Origin: a bacterium
GTDB lineage: Bacteria; CSSED10-310; JAJRTK01
Reading direction: 5' to 3'
Length of the DNA: 6,990 nt
Assembly: GCA_024278345.1 (NCBI GenBank)
Contig: JAJRTK010000114.1
Coordinates: forward strand, 1-6,990
Shown: positions 17 through 6,990 of the stretch, one piece after another
Position numbering within the stretch: the stretch's first letter is position 1
Layout: the number at the start of each line of letters is the position of its first letter
Program-made: the position numbers and the translations under genes
The notes under the pieces: generated by a model
The model's input: the letters and a program-made list of their open reading frames with translations, nothing else
Database searches by the model: none
Told to the model about the DNA's origin: nothing

Positions 17-33
17 CCTGGGGTGGTGAATTT
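17..33 (+). repeat. Left terminal inverted repeat of the IS
   Basis: CCTGGGGTGGTGAATTT is the exact reverse complement of 1787-1803. The match stops on both sides: base 16 and base 34 do not pair with their counterparts. It lies just downstream of the transposase stop codon. Confidence 0.9.
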
Positions 34-38
34 CCAGG

Positions 39-1310
39 TCACGCGGTGAGAGCAAGTTGATCGTGTTTTTGTTCCGCTTTCGGAGGCTTGAAAAAGGCTT
101 CCTGTCGCTTTGTCCGGACCGTCTTGCCGAAACTGTCCTGGACCCACTTACGAACGACCTTGACAGGTGTGGACTCAAGAGCTTTTCTAACGACGTCCTC
201 AGTTGTTTCAGCGAGACCCGCCGCCATGGACAGGACAAATCCCGTTAAGCCTCCTTTAACCTGCTCGTGCTGCATCGATTTGAATTTCCCGAACACCGAT
301 TCGATGAGTTCGCTGCTCCCGAGGAGGCATTCCCCTTCTTTTGCCTTATCCGATTCATTCAGTACGTACTCAATTAAGGACCAGCGGATCCGGATTAAGC
401 GTTCCGTCCGCCGGTCGAAGTCAAGCTTTAACAGGGGCCGCAGTTTTTTGTCAGCCCCCTGGTACAGACCGTGTGTTCGGACGAAGGATTCGGCTTTTCC
501 AACTATCTCCATGACCTGGACCCATTCATCGAGGTCTTGCCTGAAATCCACTATCCAGCCGAGTTTCTTTTTGATGGTTGCAGACTCAGGGATAGGCGTC
601 TTGCTCGTCATCATATTATCGAAGAAGGTCAGGAAATCGATTCCCCAGCTCACGAGAATATCCATATTCATGTATCTGGACTTCGTTCGCTGATTCGGTG
701 GTTCAAGATATGAAAGAGATGTTTGATGCAGAGCATTTCTAGCGTCAGAAGCATGTTTTCTAAAAGATATCCACATCAATTCATCTTTGTACTCCTTTTC
801 GAGAAGTAGAGCTGTAAAGTGCTTGACATCAAAAACATAGGCAGTTGTAGGATGTTTATCCAGAAATTTATTGATTCCAGATTTTAAGTCACTACCATGA
901 TCCGCAATGATTTGCCTTGGTGGTCCTGTTTTCCTGGTTGCCTCTTCAAGCTGTTTAAAGACGATATTACCATTGGATTGTTCTACAGGGTAAAGAGCTA
1001 TTGGCTCCATGTCGCTATAGGTGAGCTTTTTATCTCTATCTTTACTTTCAAGATAAGAATAGCGCACACCTATAATAAGTAGGCATTTCATATTTCCGGA
1101 TTGAATAGTATGATCTACAATCCATATCCAATCTCCAGCTATTTCCTTTACTCTCATCAGCTTGTAATATCCGACCCTGAGCAACCACATCCGAGCGCTC
1201 GAATAGGACGGAGTCGCACAGGAAAGCCCGAAAAACTCACTCAACACCTCGCAAATCCGCGATGTGCATCGTAATCCTGCTCCCGCTGACACGATCAGGT
1301 GAATGCACAA
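39..1310 (-). CDS. Transposase orfB: DDE-type catalytic part, probably made as an orfA-orfB fusion
   Basis: This frame encodes 423 residues from a TTG at 1310, but it stays open upstream to the A9 run, giving a fusion of 88 + 28 + 423 = 539 residues. The first 50 residues, with the 28 before the TTG, look like a helix-turn-helix region (ending WLLRVGYYKL). Candidate catalytic acids, numbered from the TTG, are Asp66 in WIVDHT, Asp137 or Asp141 in ADHGSDLKSG, and Glu334 or Glu337 in SSELIESVFGKFK. The spacing and motifs suit an RNase H-fold DDE transposase, although a large insert (about residues 165-330) separates the second Asp from the Glu. The C-terminus is Lys-rich. No Shine-Dalgarno supports independent start at TTG 1310. 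The gene is more AT-rich in its middle (about 690-1100) than at its ends. The family is not named with confidence. Confidence 0.78.
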   Translation of the reverse strand: MCIHLIVSAGAGLRCTSRICEVLSEFFGLSCATPSYSSARMWLLRVGYYKLMRVKEIAGDWIWIVDHTIQSGNMKCLLIIGVRYSYLESKDRDKKLTYSDMEPIALYPVEQSNGNIVFKQLEEATRKTGPPRQIIADHGSDLKSGINKFLDKHPTTAYVFDVKHFTALLLEKEYKDELMWISFRKHASDARNALHQTSLSYLEPPNQRTKSRYMNMDILVSWGIDFLTFFDNMMTSKTPIPESATIKKKLGWIVDFRQDLDEWVQVMEIVGKAESFVRTHGLYQGADKKLRPLLKLDFDRRTERLIRIRWSLIEYVLNESDKAKEGECLLGSSELIESVFGKFKSMQHEQVKGGLTGFVLSMAAGLAETTEDVVRKALESTPVKVVRKWVQDSFGKTVRTKRQEAFFKPPKAEQKHDQLALTA

Positions 1311-1366
1311 CCTGATAAGACCCAGGCTGTAATGGTGATGGGGCGCAAATTCCGAAAAACTCGAAG

Positions 1367-1657
1367 CTACAGCGAACTCCTCCGGCTGCGCCGCTTTTTT
1401 TTTACTTTCTCCGCCAGTTGAATCTTCAGCTTCGCATTTTCTGACTCAAGCCTCTTGTTTTTGTGCCTTAGCTCCTGTGCCTCTGCTTTCCATTCGCTTT
1501 TGCTTCGCTCCAGAAACCTCACTCGGTTTCGCAGCCGCTCAAGCTTTACCTTGCTCTCCTGAAACTTCGCTTTCCACTGGTCACGGCTCTTTTTAAAGAA
1601 CGGCACTAGCTTTCGCAACGGACTCTTGTAGCCCTGGTTTCTTGGTTGGGTAGACAT
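1367..1657 (-). CDS. Transposase orfA: N-terminal coiled-coil part, upstream of a -1 frameshift
   Basis: This 96-residue frame begins at an ATG with a good Shine-Dalgarno sequence (GAGG, 5 bases upstream). From about residue 15 to 88 it is almost entirely charged and helical, with regularly spaced Leu/Val among Lys, Arg, Glu and Gln and repeated KSRDQWK-like and RSKSEWK-like segments, as in a coiled coil. There is no catalytic motif. The frame ends with a short Arg/Ser tail after a Lys-Lys-Lys stretch encoded by A9-G. A -1 shift at that point adds 28 residues and enters orfB in frame. I read orfA as the dimerisation or DNA-binding N-terminus of the transposase, with the 96-residue form as an unshifted by-product that could act as a regulator, as known for orfA proteins of IS3-type elements (analogy only). 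Confidence 0.75.
   Translation of the reverse strand: MSTQPRNQGYKSPLRKLVPFFKKSRDQWKAKFQESKVKLERLRNRVRFLERSKSEWKAEAQELRHKNKRLESENAKLKIQLAEKVKKKRRSRRSSL
1394..1400 (-). promoter_or_regulatory. Slippery heptamer A AAA AAG, predicted -1 ribosomal frameshift site
   Basis: On the minus strand the codons read GTA AAA AAA AAG CGG, so the orfA frame holds an in-phase A AAA AAG heptamer, the class used by E. coli dnaX and several IS elements. The A9 run is 1403-1395. Slipping back one base puts the ribosome on GCG GCG CAG, the frame that is open into orfB. A GGAG (1412-1409) lies 8 bases upstream, and a small hairpin CGGC-GCA-GCCG follows at once; both could stimulate shifting. Transcriptional slippage on A9 is an alternative mechanism giving the same product. 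Confidence 0.7.
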
Positions 1658-1662
1658 TCGTT

Positions 1663-1666
1663 CCTC
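1663..1666 (-). promoter_or_regulatory. Ribosome binding site of transposase orfA
   Basis: GAGG followed by AACGA and then the ATG at 1657 (minus strand). The 5-base spacing is good and fixes the orfA start. Confidence 0.6.
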
Positions 1667-1765
1667 GCTCCGTATGGCTCGACTTCAAAAGTACGTGCAA
1701 AAATCCATCGGCCAGGACTACAACATTCTCAAGCAGGAACAAAAACACACCTGTTTCTCACTCCC

Positions 1766-1782
1766 GTTTTTTTTCAAAAAAC
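1766..1782 (-). other. Subterminal T8/A6 hairpin inside the right end of the IS
   Basis: A 7-bp perfect stem (GTTTTTT, 1766-1772, with AAAAAAC, 1776-1782) with a 3-base loop lies 4 bases inside the right terminal repeat. It is upstream of the transposase gene. It could bend DNA near the end or limit read-in transcription. The stem is nearly all A-T, so it is weak as a conventional terminator. The rest of the leader between it and the ribosome binding site shows no strong promoter. Confidence 0.4.
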
Positions 1783-1786
1783 CCAC

Positions 1787-1803
1787 AAATTCACCACCCC
1801 AGG
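1787..1803 (-). repeat. Right terminal inverted repeat of the IS
   Basis: AAATTCACCACCCCAGG is the exact reverse complement of 17-33. Its last two bases (GG, 1802-1803) are also the first two bases of the hairpin array shared with 6907-6990, so the IS boundary and the repeat boundary coincide to within 2 bases. Confidence 0.9.
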
Positions 1804-1901
1804 TCCAGGGAGCTGGCTCCCTGGCGTGGGTCTGGGAGCGGCGCTCCCAGCGGAGGTCCGGAGGCGGAGCCTCCGCCGGGTTCCAGGGCTGGAAGCCCTG
1901 G
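1802..1901 (+). repeat. Left hairpin-repeat array: four phased palindromic units
   Basis: Four perfect hairpins lie in a row: 1805-1824 (9-bp stem, loop TG), 1832-1850 (8-bp stem, loop GGC), 1859-1875 (7-bp stem, loop GGA) and 1883-1901 (8-bp stem, loop GGA). Each is introduced by GGTC or GGTT (at 1802, 1829, 1855 and 1879), so the units repeat every 24-27 bases. The stem sequences differ between units while pairing is kept. Bases 1802-1885 recur at 6907-6990 with one mismatch. This resembles intergenic REP/BIME-type repeats in general form. It has no coding sense. The IS ends at the first unit. Confidence 0.85.
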
Positions 1902-1923
1902 GGCGGCGTCTGAAATCTGAACC

Positions 1924-1948
1924 GTGGCCGGTACCATGACCGAGGCCC
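1924..1948 (+). repeat. 25-bp repeat motif, left copy (inverted partner at 6851-6875)
   Basis: Bases 1924-1948 are the exact reverse complement of 6851-6875; the match ends at both borders. The motif runs GTGGCCGGTACC, then ATG, then ACCGAGGCCC, with imperfect dyad symmetry (GGCC and GGT arms against ACC and GGCC). It sits 22 bases after the hairpin array and points toward the TRAP operon. The ATG opens a 46-codon frame (to 2076) without a ribosome binding site, which I do not call as a gene. Confidence 0.85.
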
Positions 1949-2098: not shown

Positions 2099-2103
2099 GG
2101 AGG
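2099..2103 (+). promoter_or_regulatory. Ribosome binding site of tatT
   Basis: GGAGG, 5 bases before the ATG at 2109. A GTG at 2103 overlaps this motif and so is an unlikely start. Confidence 0.65.
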
Positions 2104-2108
2104 TGACG

Positions 2109-3104
2109 ATGGTTCGGCAAGACATTGAAGTTTGCGGCGCGGTTTGCAATGGTGCTGTGCGTGGCCGGAAGACCGCTCTTGGACTGCGGGGGTGGGTGAC
2201 CTGGGTTCTCTTCCTTTCGGCAGCGTCGGGATGTAGCATGCAGAAACTGGCGATCCGTCAGATGACGCCGATGCTGCCCGAAGGGATTATAGCCTTTGAG
2301 GAGGAGCCGGACTACCAGTTTGCCCGGGAAGCACTGGGCGGGCAAATCAAGTTTCTGGAGACGCTCTACCGGAATGATCCGGACAATTTGGAGCTGCGGA
2401 TATTGCTTTCCAGAGGCTATTCCAGCTACGGGTTTCTTTTCTTGGAGGAAGATGCTCGGAGCCTGGAGTTCGAGGAGCCGGACCTAGCGGACGTCGAGTT
2501 CGCCCGGGCTCGGAATTTCTACCTTCGTGCCCGGAACTATTGCCTGGAGGCCCTGGCTGCCCGGAAGGGCTTCAAGAGCGCCTTGAATGCGGGGATTGGC
2601 GATGAAGGGTTGCAGACCTTCGAGCGTCACCTGAAGAAGTATGGTCCCAAGGATGTCCCGATCCTCTTCTGGACAGCTTATGCCTGGGGCGCCTACGTGA
2701 ATCTGTCTCGGGACGACATCGATATTCTGGCCGATGCGCCCAAGGCGGATGCGCTCATGAAACGCGTGCTGGAGCTTGATCCCGACTATTACAATGGCGG
2801 CGCTCATCTCTATTTTGCCGTGTTGAACGGAGTGAAGCCGGAGAGCCTGGGCGGAAAGCCCCAGGTGGCCCTCAAACATTTCGAGGCGGCCAGGAGGATT
2901 GCCAAGGGTAAGTTCCTTCTCACCGATGTCTTTTGGGCCCGATATTATGGCGTCCAGACGCAGAATCGAGAACTCTATGTGTCGAAGCTTGAGGCGGTCT
3001 TGGAGGCGCCGGACGATTTGTTTCCCCAGCAGGCGCTGGCCAACGTTTTGGCGAAGAAAAGGGCCCGAAGGCTCTTGGACAATGTTGACGAGTATTTCTT
3101 TTAG
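2109..3104 (+). CDS. tatT: TRAP transporter T-component lipoprotein (TatT family)
   Basis: This 331-residue protein is a periplasmic lipoprotein partner of a TRAP transporter binding protein. The family is typified by Treponema pallidum Tp0956, a helical, TPR-like trimer that binds its cognate P subunit. The N-terminus carries a long basic lead, a hydrophobic stretch (WVTWVLFLSAASGC) and a lipobox ASGC, giving a lipidated Cys42. The rest is soluble and helix-rich, with TPR-like segments: PDNLELRILLSRGYSSYGF, a YLRARNYCLEAL stretch, and LELDPDYYNGGAHLYFAVL near the C-terminus. FWTAYAWGAYVNLSRD is the kind of segment typical of the family. The ATG at 2109 was chosen for its GGAGG site; GTG 2103 adds two residues. 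The n-region of about 30 residues is long for a lipoprotein, so GTG 2157 is a possible later start. Lying first in a tatT-dctP-dctQ-dctM operon strongly supports the call. Confidence 0.85.
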   Translation: MVRQDIEVCGAVCNGAVRGRKTALGLRGWVTWVLFLSAASGCSMQKLAIRQMTPMLPEGIIAFEEEPDYQFAREALGGQIKFLETLYRNDPDNLELRILLSRGYSSYGFLFLEEDARSLEFEEPDLADVEFARARNFYLRARNYCLEALAARKGFKSALNAGIGDEGLQTFERHLKKYGPKDVPILFWTAYAWGAYVNLSRDDIDILADAPKADALMKRVLELDPDYYNGGAHLYFAVLNGVKPESLGGKPQVALKHFEAARRIAKGKFLLTDVFWARYYGVQTQNRELYVSKLEAVLEAPDDLFPQQALANVLAKKRARRLLDNVDEYFF

Positions 3105-3273
3105 ACCTCTGGGCCATGGGCCTTTTGGACCGAGCTGACTCCCATTCCGGTAGGCGAATGGCAGAGGGTCGTGTGAGATTGTGGCTGGATGTGGGGGTGG
3201 GTAGCGTAGCGGCCACCGTGATGGTTCGAGAGACCGGCTGTCGAGGCGTGTTTTTTTTGTAGGTCTGTTAGCC

Positions 3274-3280
3274 GAGGTGA
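3274..3280 (+). promoter_or_regulatory. Ribosome binding site of dctP
   Basis: GAGGTGA ahead of GTG 3286 (8 bases after GAGG). The GTG at 3277 lies inside this motif. The gap from tatT (3105-3285) also holds a 6-bp hairpin (CCATTC 3142-3147 with GAATGG 3156-3161) and a T8 tract at 3251-3258 with no strong stem before it, so no clear terminator separates the two genes. Confidence 0.55.
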
Positions 3281-3285
3281 CGGTA

Positions 3286-4338
3286 GTGAAGAGTCGAAAA
3301 AATAGAGTCATTGGCGTTGTAGGTGGAGTTCTTGGCGTGGCGTTGTTGCTGGCACCCTTGGGGGAGTGGATTGCCCCCTCCGCCCGGTGCGGCGGGCGCG
3401 TGGTGATCAAGTTTGCGACCCTTGCTCCCGAGGGAACTGTCTGGCACAAGGCGATTCTCCGTGCGGATCGGAAGCTGCGCAAGGCGTCGGGCAACACCAT
3501 GAGGATCAGGGTTTACCCGGGCGGGGTTGCCGGGGACGAAAAGGACGTGATCCGGAAGATGCGCCTTGGGCAGTTCCACGCGATAGGAGCGACTGGCGCG
3601 GGGATGGCGGAGATTGTGCCCGCGGTCCACGTCTTGGATCTCCCCTTCCTTTTCGACGACGGCGAGGAAGTGGATTATGTGCTGGAGAGGATTTTCCCCG
3701 ATTTCCAGAAGATGTTTCTAGACAAGGGATTCCGTCTCCTTGGCTTTACCGAGGCGGGCTTTGTCCACTTTTACTCGCAGATTCCCATTTCCTCGCCGGA
3801 AGATTTTCGTAGCAGGGAGGTCAAAGCCTGGCTCTGGGAGGGCGATCCCTTGATTACGGCCCTTTACAGGGCGTTCGGCATTCAATCGGTTCCCCTGGCT
3901 TTGACCGACGTCTTGACGGGGCTTCAGACAGGGATGATCAACACCGTGTTCGGTCCGCCGGCAGCGGTGGTAGGTTTGCAGTGGCACACCAAGATCAACT
4001 ACATGACCTCAATCCCCGTGTCTTGGGCTGTGGGGGGCGTTTTGCTCACCGAGAGGATCTGGAAAAAACTGACACCGGAGCAGCAAGAGACCTTATCGGC
4101 GGTGACAGGCCGCCTTAGCCGCGAGCTGATGAAGCTCACCCGGCAGGACAACGCCAAGGCGTTTGCAGCCATGAAGAAACGGGGTATCAAGGTGACCCGC
4201 GATCCCACGGCCAAGGAGTGGGAAGAGTTCGAAGATATCAGCCGTAAGGCCCGGGAGGCGCTGGTCGGCGAACTTTACAGCAGGGAGCTTCTGAACAAGG
4301 TAGAGGGCCTCGTCAAGGAGTATAGGGCCCAGAAATAG
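3286..4338 (+). CDS. dctP: TRAP transporter substrate-binding protein, DctP family (TatT-associated type)
   Basis: This 350-residue periplasmic protein captures the solute and hands it to DctQM. After a basic start (KSRKNR) comes a hydrophobic signal segment (about residues 8-28), with likely cleavage near APSA at residue 33. The mature part opens with VVIKFATLAPEGTVWHKAI, the first strand of the DctP fold. It continues with MRIRVYPGGVAGDEKDVIRKMRLGQFHAIGATGAGM, VLDLPFLF, the hinge segment EDFRSREVKAWLWEGDP, and DVLTGLQTGMINTVFGPP. Where many sialate or C4-dicarboxylate DctP proteins have a Lys-Ile-Arg whose Arg grips the carboxylate, this protein reads K-A-W (residues 180-182) in a WLWEGDP motif, which I recall from TatT-linked P proteins. 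The substrate may therefore not be a simple carboxylate. Length is normal. GTG 3286 was chosen over GTG 3277, which overlaps the ribosome binding site. Confidence 0.9.
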   Translation: MKSRKNRVIGVVGGVLGVALLLAPLGEWIAPSARCGGRVVIKFATLAPEGTVWHKAILRADRKLRKASGNTMRIRVYPGGVAGDEKDVIRKMRLGQFHAIGATGAGMAEIVPAVHVLDLPFLFDDGEEVDYVLERIFPDFQKMFLDKGFRLLGFTEAGFVHFYSQIPISSPEDFRSREVKAWLWEGDPLITALYRAFGIQSVPLALTDVLTGLQTGMINTVFGPPAAVVGLQWHTKINYMTSIPVSWAVGGVLLTERIWKKLTPEQQETLSAVTGRLSRELMKLTRQDNAKAFAAMKKRGIKVTRDPTAKEWEEFEDISRKAREALVGELYSRELLNKVEGLVKEYRAQK

Positions 4339-4404
4339 TCGTTTCAACAGGCTCCGCCCAGATCGTGGATCCCTTTGTTTCCTCCATCACTTCAGCGTGG
4401 AAAA

Positions 4405-5058
4405 ATGAACGTTCTAAGAGACGAAGTTGACAGCGATTCTCCACCTTCTTCAGAGCCGCCGGTGGCGGGCGAGAGAAAGAGTCTGCTCAAGCGGATCGAA
4501 TGGCTTCTCTTTAAGCTGGAAGAGGGGCTTTTGCTGTTGGCTCTGGGTGTTTTGGTGGGCCTATCGTTTTTCCAGGTGCTCTTGTTCAATCTTTCCCAGG
4601 TTGGCTTCACTTGGGCCGGTGATTGGTCGCTTTCCATGGTCTGGGGCGACCGGTTTTTACGCCACCTCGTCATCGTTATCGCTTTTTTGGGCGCGACATT
4701 GGCGACTCGGGAGGGTCGCCATCTCAACATCGATGCCATGACACGCCTCTTTCCGGCTCGTGTCAAGGTGATCATCAAGGCCGTCATCGACTTGATTTCA
4801 TCGGTCGTTTGCCTCCTCTTGGCCAAGGCGACTTGGGATATGATCGCCATCCTCCGCGATTCCAGCGGAGAAGCCTTCAAGCTCGGTTCCTTCGTGGTAG
4901 CCGACTGGGTGTTTTGCTACGCGATTTTCAGTGGCTTCACGCTCATCGCCGTACGCTTCGTCATCCGGGGGGGGCAGGACTTCTGGGGCGGCTGGACGGG
5001 CAACGTGGAGCCAGAACCACCACCGGTAGGTGCGGTGGCTCCAGTGCAGCCTCAGTAA
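4405..5058 (+). CDS. dctQ: TRAP transporter small permease subunit, DctQ family
   Basis: This 217-residue inner-membrane protein is the four-helix subunit that scaffolds DctM. A polar, acidic N-terminus of about 30 residues precedes helices near 41-61, 86-102, 123-146 and 168-187. Between helices two and three is the DctQ signature: a small-residue run GATLAT followed by REGRHLNIDAM (about 102-112). DWSLSMVWGDRF before helix two also fits the family. The C-terminal tail is Pro/Glu-rich (EPEPPPVGAVAPVQPQ), longer than needed for the fold. The frame is open back to TTG 4375, but ATG 4405 is the better start. Its Shine-Dalgarno is poor (GGA, 3 bases upstream), so translation may depend on coupling or be low. 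It follows dctP by 66 bases. Confidence 0.9.
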   Translation: MNVLRDEVDSDSPPSSEPPVAGERKSLLKRIEWLLFKLEEGLLLLALGVLVGLSFFQVLLFNLSQVGFTWAGDWSLSMVWGDRFLRHLVIVIAFLGATLATREGRHLNIDAMTRLFPARVKVIIKAVIDLISSVVCLLLAKATWDMIAILRDSSGEAFKLGSFVVADWVFCYAIFSGFTLIAVRFVIRGGQDFWGGWTGNVEPEPPPVGAVAPVQPQ

Positions 5059-5131
5059 TGGCATTGTCGAGGCGCTGACCGGAAAGACCGGAAGAGCCGG
5101 GGTAGGGCAGCGCGGAAAAAGTCCTCTTCTT

Positions 5132-5135
5132 GGAG
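5132..5135 (+). promoter_or_regulatory. Ribosome binding site of dctM
   Basis: GGAG, 10 bases before ATG 5146. It supports starting dctM at the signal-peptide-like N-terminus and not at a later Met. The gap from dctQ (5059-5145) also has a 6-bp stem, GCGCTG 5072-5077 with CAGCGC 5108-5113, whose loop holds two GACCGGAA copies; its role is unknown. Confidence 0.55.
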
Positions 5136-5145
5136 ATCTGTTCCC

Positions 5146-6771
5146 ATGTGTCGTTGGTCGTCGCTCCTCGTCTCTTTCCTTTGCATGGCCGCGGTGACGG
5201 TCCATGGACAGACTGGTCCAACTGAAGGGAGCCCCACTTCGGAGAGATCCGCAGGGGGCGATGCCGCGGCGGAGGGTCTGGATGCCGGCTCCAACAGCCC
5301 GATGATCCAAGCAGTTGCCGGTGCGGATGAATCGGACGGCGGCACTGAAAGCTCGGAGGGGTCCTTGGCCGGGGCGGAGATTCCAGACGATGATTTGGGT
5401 GCTTCAGATGCCAATGAGCCTTGGGATGACGAAGATTTTGAGGGTGAATCGCATTGGTGGATGCCTTTTGCCTGGCTTGGCGTCATACTCTTCGCGATTC
5501 TAGGAGGGCCACTCTTCATCGTCATGGGCGGTGCCGCGCTCCTGGCGTTTTACGGCTCTGGCGGTGAAAGCATGTTCGTCATCACCGAGCTGTACGGCAA
5601 AATGTCCTCGGCACCCACCCTCTTGGCGATTCCGCTCTTTACCTTTGCAGGCTACCTCATGGCCGAAGGCGGAACCTCCAGACGACTGCTTGGGCTTTCC
5701 CGGACGGTCCTGGGTTGGGCGCCGGGAGGGCTTTCCATCGTCGCCCTGATGACCTGCGCATTTTTCACGGCCTTTACCGGCGCTTCAGGAGTCACCATCA
5801 TTGCCCTGGGCGGACTCTTGTTTCCGGCGCTTGTAGCGGATGGTTACCCGGAGGACTATAGCCTGGGTCTCCTCACTGCTTGCGGTAGCCTCGGCTTGCT
5901 CTTTCCCCCTTCGTTGCCGATCATTCTGTACGGAATTGTGGCCAACAGGCCGGACTATCCCACCAATATCGACGACCTCTGGATCGCTGGTGCGGTCCCT
6001 GGGATTCTGCTCGTGCTGGTTCTTTCCGGCTACGGCATCTACATGGCCAGAAAGTCCAAAGTCCAACTGGTGCCCTTCAAGACGGCCGACGTCAAAGTGG
6101 CCCTCCGGGAGGCAGCCTGGGAAATTCCTCTTCCCATCTTGGTCTTAGTAGGGATTTACGGTGGCTATTTCACGGCGAACCAAGCGGCTGCCGTCACCGC
6201 GGCCTATGTGCTGGTGGTCCAGGTGGTGATCTACAAGGATCTCCACATCTGGCGGGATGTGCCCCGAGTCGCCCGAGATTCCATGGTGTTGGTGGGGGGA
6301 ATCCTCATCATCTTGGGGGCTGCCCTGGGCTTGACGAACTTCCTCATCGATCAGGGGATTCCCGACCAGCTCCTGGCCCTCATTCGGCAATATATCCACA
6401 GCCGGTTTGCCTTCTTCGTGGCACTGAATATCTTCTTGCTGCTTGTGGGCTGCCTGATGGACATCTTTTCGGCCATCATCGTTGTCGTTCCGCTCATCAC
6501 GCCGCTGGCCAAGGAATATGGGGTCGATCCGATTCACTTGGGAATCATCTTTTTGACGAATCTGGAGATCGGCTACCTGACGCCGCCGGTGGGAATCAAT
6601 CTCTTCATCTCCTCCTTCCGCTTCAAGCGACCGGTCCTCACGCTTTACCGGGCCTCCATCCCCTTCTTGATCCTGTTGCTGGGCGGGCTTATCGTCATTA
6701 CCTACTGGCCCGGCTTGAGCCTGGGGCTTCTACACTGGCTGCGCCCAGAATCCATCGTGGTGCTTCCATAG
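5146..6771 (+). CDS. dctM: TRAP transporter large permease subunit, DctM family, with an acidic N-terminal extension
   Basis: This 541-residue protein is the main transport subunit, working as an ion-coupled elevator-type carrier with DctQ. Residues from about 104 to 541 form the normal DctM core, close to the usual 425-440 residues, and are strongly hydrophobic. Family motifs are clear: IPLFTFAGYLMAEGG (162-176), the GASGVTIIALGGLLFPALV region (212-230), SLGLLFPPSLPIILYG (248-263), GCLMDIFSAIIVVVPLITPL (435-454) and GIIFLTNLEIGYLTPPVGIN (466-485). Those Ser/Gly/Pro-rich hairpins form the Na+ and substrate sites in SiaM-type structures. Residues 1-22 look like a signal peptide ending AVTVHGQ. 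Residues 23-103 are low-complexity with 22 Asp/Glu and a single Arg, an addition not typical of DctM. It begins at ATG 5146 with GGAG upstream and is the last gene of the operon. Confidence 0.93.
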   Translation: MCRWSSLLVSFLCMAAVTVHGQTGPTEGSPTSERSAGGDAAAEGLDAGSNSPMIQAVAGADESDGGTESSEGSLAGAEIPDDDLGASDANEPWDDEDFEGESHWWMPFAWLGVILFAILGGPLFIVMGGAALLAFYGSGGESMFVITELYGKMSSAPTLLAIPLFTFAGYLMAEGGTSRRLLGLSRTVLGWAPGGLSIVALMTCAFFTAFTGASGVTIIALGGLLFPALVADGYPEDYSLGLLTACGSLGLLFPPSLPIILYGIVANRPDYPTNIDDLWIAGAVPGILLVLVLSGYGIYMARKSKVQLVPFKTADVKVALREAAWEIPLPILVLVGIYGGYFTANQAAAVTAAYVLVVQVVIYKDLHIWRDVPRVARDSMVLVGGILIILGAALGLTNFLIDQGIPDQLLALIRQYIHSRFAFFVALNIFLLLVGCLMDIFSAIIVVVPLITPLAKEYGVDPIHLGIIFLTNLEIGYLTPPVGINLFISSFRFKRPVLTLYRASIPFLILLLGGLIVITYWPGLSLGLLHWLRPESIVVLP

Positions 6772-6850: not shown

Positions 6851-6875
6851 GGGCCTCGGTCATGGTACCGGCCAC
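6851..6875 (-). repeat. 25-bp repeat motif, right copy (inverted partner of 1924-1948)
   Basis: This is an exact reverse complement of 1924-1948, 79 bases after the dctM stop. On the minus strand it reads toward the operon, so the two copies face inward and enclose 4952 bp. As on the left, it sits between the operon and the hairpin array, here 34 bases before the first stem. Confidence 0.85.
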
Positions 6876-6906
6876 CCGAAAAAAGCGCGCAGCGCACAAA
6901 GATGTG

Positions 6907-6990
6907 GGTCCAGGGAGCTGGCTCCCTGGCGTGGGTCTGGGAGCGGCGCTCCCAGCGGAGGTCCGGAGGCAGAGCCTCCGCCGGGTTCCA
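6907..6990 (+). repeat. Right hairpin-repeat array, cut by the window end
   Basis: These 84 bases match 1802-1885 in the same orientation with one difference, G at 1866 against A at 6971. Three complete hairpins are seen at 6910-6929, 6937-6955 and 6964-6980; a fourth begins at 6988. The single difference lies in the loop of the third hairpin, leaving all stems intact. Being 3' to dctM, it could stabilise or end the operon transcript. Confidence 0.85.

Follow-up and report, generated by a model that had tools for sequence, protein, structure and literature searches.

What is a run of four phased hairpins doing beside a bacterial transporter operon, and how did it get there? The question is raised by the window, the whole 6,990-nt stretch of DNA analysed here, in which the sequence-only reading had noticed four units with GGTC or GGTT leads, a 24–27 bp period and loops of 2–3 bases, and had considered a self-spreading repeat, a structured RNA or a protein-binding array. 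That description of the array was confirmed, and the stems proved to be perfect over 7–9 bp. The lead starts are spaced 27, 26 and 24 bp apart in an array that spans positions 1802-1901, and all four units point the same way. Four perfect hairpins were observed, compared with a maximum of two in 5000 dinucleotide shuffles, and the RNA fold z-scores of the array were -2.95 for the plus strand and -5.31 for the minus strand. Each unit had also been described as having a different stem. There are indeed four distinct stems, but they are not wholly different, as GGGAGC is common to units 1 and 2 and CCAGGG to units 1 and 4; these partly related stems suggest that the hairpin units arose from one another. 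The feature also extends beyond the array that was noted earlier, on to an inverted-repeat end at 1924-1947.

Alignment of the flanks showed the four hairpins to lie at the centre of a 201-bp non-coding MITE, here family A, which consists in order of a 24-bp TIR (GGCCTCGGTCATGGTACCGGCCAC), a leader, four same-direction GGTYC hairpins, a right subterminal region and a second TIR (GTGGCCGGTACCATGACCGAGGCC). A search with the array across the genome from which the window comes (6.06 Mb in 550 contigs) gave about 40 scored copies from 454 first-look candidates, while A-type TIR ends were matched 249 times at three mismatches or fewer, versus 17 times for a reversed control, which indicates roughly 115 family A elements in this genome. 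These are dispersed among different flanks and lack a transposase gene, and full copies measure 199–204 bp. Exact 8–9 bp duplications (for example GTTTTCTG, CAACACCG, CAGGTTTG and AAAACCAG) border about half of the full copies for which both flanks are available. An exact duplication is absent from about half of the complete copies, many of which lie near contig ends, and some of the apparently missing duplications may be artefacts of an assembly that is incomplete and broken at these elements. With its TIRs, target duplication, short length, absence of genes and high copy number, family A is a MITE by structural definition, and the suggestion of a self-spreading repeat is therefore borne out. 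The window itself does contain two near-identical array copies, as would follow from a simple local duplication of one array, and the earlier reading had held that finding only these two in the genome would point that way; the roughly 115 dispersed copies in different flanks exclude this case, and local duplication is refuted.

The closest copies are about 100% identical and the most divergent about 79%, which indicates that family A has spread over a long time. ORF distances around the insertions were uninformative due to open contig edges, so an empty-site test was used instead, in which the element and one repeat were removed and a stop-free stretch of at least 150 codons was sought. Such a stretch was present at three of the eight testable empty sites, compared with 93% of random positions, showing that A insertions are mostly intergenic and depleted from open frames; one insertion (L069) breaks a frame of 611 codons. 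Array size and unit content differ between copies, and unit 1 is kept across the family with a variable loop. A copy of 174 bp (L051/L052, contig C58:214-387) has three hairpins and has lost one whole unit of 27 bp, so unit-level deletion does occur. Among eight genomes of the phylum, the element was found in its own genome alone, where the DNA relatives that could be compared were such that the family and the class are each represented by this genome only. When the genome collection was searched for the exact TIR, the matches listed included only two unrelated ones of 21 nt, a search of plasmid DNA gave chance matches only, and the hairpin-1 pattern was not found in viral contigs.

The window holds two copies of family A (Table 1). 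The array copy that begins at 6907 is 99% identical to the first over 84 nt, and the complete left end of an A element is visible at 6852-6906. In the inverted repeat pair I1 of the window (1924-1948 / 6851-6875), the first arm is the right end of copy 1 and the second arm the left end of copy 2. Copy 1 is interrupted by an unrelated insertion sequence, which, as a comparison of contigs C464 and C33 shows, abuts GGTCCAGGG at both of its junctions with the MITE; the left junction in C464, which also lies at GGTCCAGGG, implies a 9-bp duplication for the insertion sequence. In C33, the sequence to the left of the insertion sequence fails to match the MITE, which means that either the assembly is mixed there or an adjacent deletion has occurred. 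The 423-aa ORF of this insertion sequence had no significant match in Pfam or NCBIfam, and an A-run sits where a frameshift would join the 96-aa ORF to the downstream frame. Between the two MITE A copies lies the operon of a TRAP transporter that has a T-component (TAtT, DctP, DctQ and DctM; 2103-6771), and as the copies have the same orientation, recombination could in principle delete or move the operon. Many contigs end inside the MITE, and the element thereby helps to explain the fragmented assembly.

Table 1. Features of the two MITE A copies and of the insertion sequence, in window coordinates
Feature	Positions	Strand	Details
Unrelated insertion sequence in MITE copy 1	19..1801	-	TIR TGGGGTGGTGAATTT
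Transposase-like ORF of insertion sequence	39..1310	-	423 aa from first start codon
Upstream ORF of insertion sequence	1367..1657	-	96 aa, coiled-coil-like
MITE A copy 1	1802..1947	+	Lacks left TIR and leader, truncated by insertion sequence
Hairpin unit 1	1802..1824	+	Lead GGTC, stem CCAGGGAGC/GCTCCCTGG, loop TG
Hairpin unit 2	1829..1850	+	Lead GGTC, stem CTGGGAGC/GCTCCCAG, loop GGC
Hairpin unit 3	1855..1875	+	Lead GGTC, stem CGGAGGC/GCCTCCG, loop GGA (AGA in one subfamily)
Hairpin unit 4	1879..1901	+	Lead GGTT, stem CCAGGGCT/AGCCCTGG, loop GGA
Right subterminal region, copy 1	1902..1923	+	GGCGGCGTCTGAAATCTGAACC; most variable non-loop part of element (7.7%)
Right TIR of MITE A copy 1	1924..1947	+	GTGGCCGGTACCATGACCGAGGCC
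Left TIR of MITE A copy 2	6852..6875	+	
Leader, copy 2	6876..6906	+	CCGAAAAAAGCGCGCAGCGCACAAAGATGTG; homologous to family B leader
Hairpin array of MITE A copy 2	6907..6990	+	Runs past window and contig end

The hairpin cassette is common to two MITE families with different TIRs. Family B has a TIR of about 22 bp (GGGTATCCACGYAAGGCGGGACA), and in nine of the 12 copies with usable flanks its 8-bp duplications match at seven or more of the eight positions. The leaders of the two families are homologous (AAAAGACGCGCAGCGTACAAAAACGTGGGTCC in B versus AAAAAAGCGCGCAGCGCACAAAGATGTGGGTCC), and the hairpins that follow the leader in B vary in number and kind. A copies are also nested inside B copies (L018 and L091). 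Lead-hairpins and repeats were counted in a 1.05 Mb sample of contigs, where 149 of the 216 lead-hairpins had an A or B TIR no more than 350 bp away and a further 22 were close to contig ends, which indicates that the arrays belong to the MITEs; most of the other 45 are background hairpins or elements that have degraded. A repeated unit, ACCATGAAAGTACATGGTTAAATCCATCTTCGACGGCGTGGTTATGG, was additionally observed near B-type ends (L157:6660-6900, L200 and L201).

The mover of both families is probably a transposase with a DUF6399 domain (PF19936), a proposal based on the ends that flank DUF6399 genes. Family A ends match those of DUF6399 elements in three settings. In its own genome, contig C80 holds a DUF6399 relic that stops about 50 bp short of an A-type TIR and scores 23 bits, below the Pfam cut-off of 35.4. 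In a second genome of the same phylum (G006), an A-like TIR (GGCCTCGTTCATCGTTTSGGYC) lies beside each of the three DUF6399 matches. The third setting is plasmid pTs417 of Candidatus Thiodictyon syntrophicum, where a 1916-bp element (L213:968-2883) with TIRs GGCCTTGATCAT[AAA/CGT]TCCGGCC and an 8-bp duplication, GTCCAACC, encloses an uninterrupted DUF6399 gene. B-type TIRs adjoin broken genes with a DUF6399-matching C-terminus on three contigs (C188, C390 and C507), and B-type ends are found near DUF6399 genes on plasmids of the cyanobacteria Crinalium and Acaryochloris. The incomplete assembly of the genome itself revealed no intact DUF6399 gene with TIRs of the A type, and no TIR was followed by A/T in place of the MITE interior, so this route yielded no autonomous copy. 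Pfam annotates DUF6399 only as a domain of unknown function, and no mention of it was found in the literature searched.

Taken together, it is very probable on these comparisons that the hairpins are cargo of MITE A, a 201-bp non-autonomous element moved in trans by a DUF6399 transposase with an 8-bp duplication. A DUF6399-domain transposase from an insertion sequence with matching ends would recognise the MITE TIRs in trans and insert the MITE mostly between genes, generating the 8-bp target duplication, and such transposases may still act in this genome. A Pfam family without a known function would thereby gain a likely role, that of a transposase which comes with an 8-bp duplication and two TIR types that can be recognised, and which is seen in this lineage, in a gammaproteobacterium and in cyanobacteria. 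Near the Thiodictyon element there is also a MITE of about 160 bp (L213:480-640), with the same A-type ends, the duplication GTTGCGCC and a large internal palindrome.

Several bacterial MITEs are comparable to these elements. QMITE2 from Coxiella burnetii, Chunjie from Geobacter and the Correia element are about 178–235 bp long, and QMITE2 has TIRs of 23–29 bp and duplications of 7–9 bp (PMC10969869). All three resemble family A in size, high copy number, mostly intergenic sites and stable predicted folds, whereas A has an interior of perfect hairpins ordered head-to-tail, an array that is common to a second MITE family, and A is linked here to DUF6399 genes. The BrickBuilt MITE of Porphyromonas gingivalis features a tandem array of 23-nt units with a leader and a tail (PMC4596501), and is like A in having a tandem unit array inside a MITE between such regions, but BrickBuilt units repeat one sequence while the units of A are hairpins, each with its own stem. 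The DUF6399 genes on the Candidatus Thiodictyon, Acaryochloris and Crinalium plasmids have A- or B-type TIRs near the gene, as in the MITEs described here, and the Thiodictyon element shares the 8-bp duplication of A and B. Unlike the MITEs, the plasmid elements carry a transposase-sized gene, and no array of GGTYC hairpins was seen in those stretches of the Thiodictyon element that were read. A and B are new MITE families, and a shared internal hairpin cassette is uncommon.

MITEs that carry this array provide a natural experiment on what keeps perfect hairpins in such elements. Divergence of family A copies from the reference was 1.9% in stems, 1.8% in leads and spacers and 2.5–3.5% in TIRs, and reached 4.8% in the leader, 7.7% in the right subterminal region and 10.6% in loops. 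Covariation is nearly absent from family A, where most stem changes break pairs and a clear double change is seen at one pair. For the hairpins of family B, the older of the two, the evidence for covariation is moderate: 943 of 1025 cells pair, and 26 cells show double changes versus 10 in shuffles, with none of 1000 shuffles reaching 26, although the shuffles take no account of relatedness. Slid registers pair far less, in a comparison that is biased towards the reference structure. The double changes lie mostly at inner, loop-proximal pairs, a pattern as compatible with template switching that corrects palindromes as with selection. The proposal that the structure itself is selected is thus half supported, by paired changes beyond shuffles in B and not by A, which is nearly without covariation, and either selection or template switching fits.

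We tentatively favour a reading in which the hairpins damp read-through transcription and template switching keeps their arms matched. The hairpins would pair in transcripts or in single-stranded DNA, and folding in read-through RNA could damp transcription across the element, while template switching within the palindromes would maintain the match between arms. No intrinsic terminator-like site passed in a terminator scan at the window copy, which leaves a termination role without direct support. Pairing may also stay perfect without selection if template switching alone, in replication or transposition, repairs palindromes that have become imperfect, a possible explanation that draws on the loop-proximal position of the B double changes and on loop inversions among copies (such as TG to CA), but which is at odds with outer stems that are also well kept. 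It is rather unlikely that the MITE is only a vehicle for an array under selection as a structured regulatory RNA or as a protein-binding array. The low divergence of A stems and leads relative to loops and flanks, the covariation in B and the presence of the same module in two families with different TIRs would all agree with this. However, the array matched no Rfam family at the gathering score, it is absent from the other phylum genomes examined, its insertions are scattered, with at least the one at L069 breaking a long reading frame, and its size and unit content are not constant. An equally doubtful proposal is that the cassette was exchanged between the two families, both served by DUF6399, since the hairpins aid the element in transposition, insulation or replication, with units gained and lost while pairing is kept; if so, the hairpins themselves would benefit the element that carries them.

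A REP origin with a REP-associated tyrosine transposase (RAYT) had also been raised for the array. Under this view, the hairpins would be palindromes of the REP/BIME type that a RAYT disperses; such palindromes are like family A in being high-copy short hairpins with a conserved unpaired lead (PMC3733652, PMC2817692). The suggested search for a RAYT elsewhere in the genome did identify one RAYT-like gene (L157:7511-8236; NF047646, E = 1.4e-18, below the NCBIfam cut-off), but this contains a different, GTAG-tagged repeat, GTAGGGGCGGGTTCNGAACCCGCCC, which is matched only twice in the 1.05 Mb sample. The GTAG or CGTC tag that defines REPs (PMC3733652) is absent from the GGTC/GGTT leads, and the units run head-to-tail instead of in the alternating, inverted orientation of BIMEs. 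Lead-hairpins also cluster at MITE ends, mostly confined to TIR-bounded elements and not dispersed as free 20–40 bp units, and the long TIRs and 8-bp duplications are as expected of cut-and-paste transposition. Dispersal by RAYT is therefore largely refuted by the leads, TIRs, duplications and array location, and we regard it as highly improbable. Within the RAYT-like frame, two copies of a GTAG-tagged palindrome, GGGCGGGTTCGGAACCCGCCCCTAC, have apparently been inserted into the coding sequence. Another abundant palindromic repeat in this genome consists of CACCGGCATCTTGCCGGTG followed by TAGCGCCCTCCGGGCTGCACGG (L120:415, L151:17606, L158:661 and others), and the 1.05 Mb sample contains about 30 occurrences of its core 16-mers, with both strands counted.
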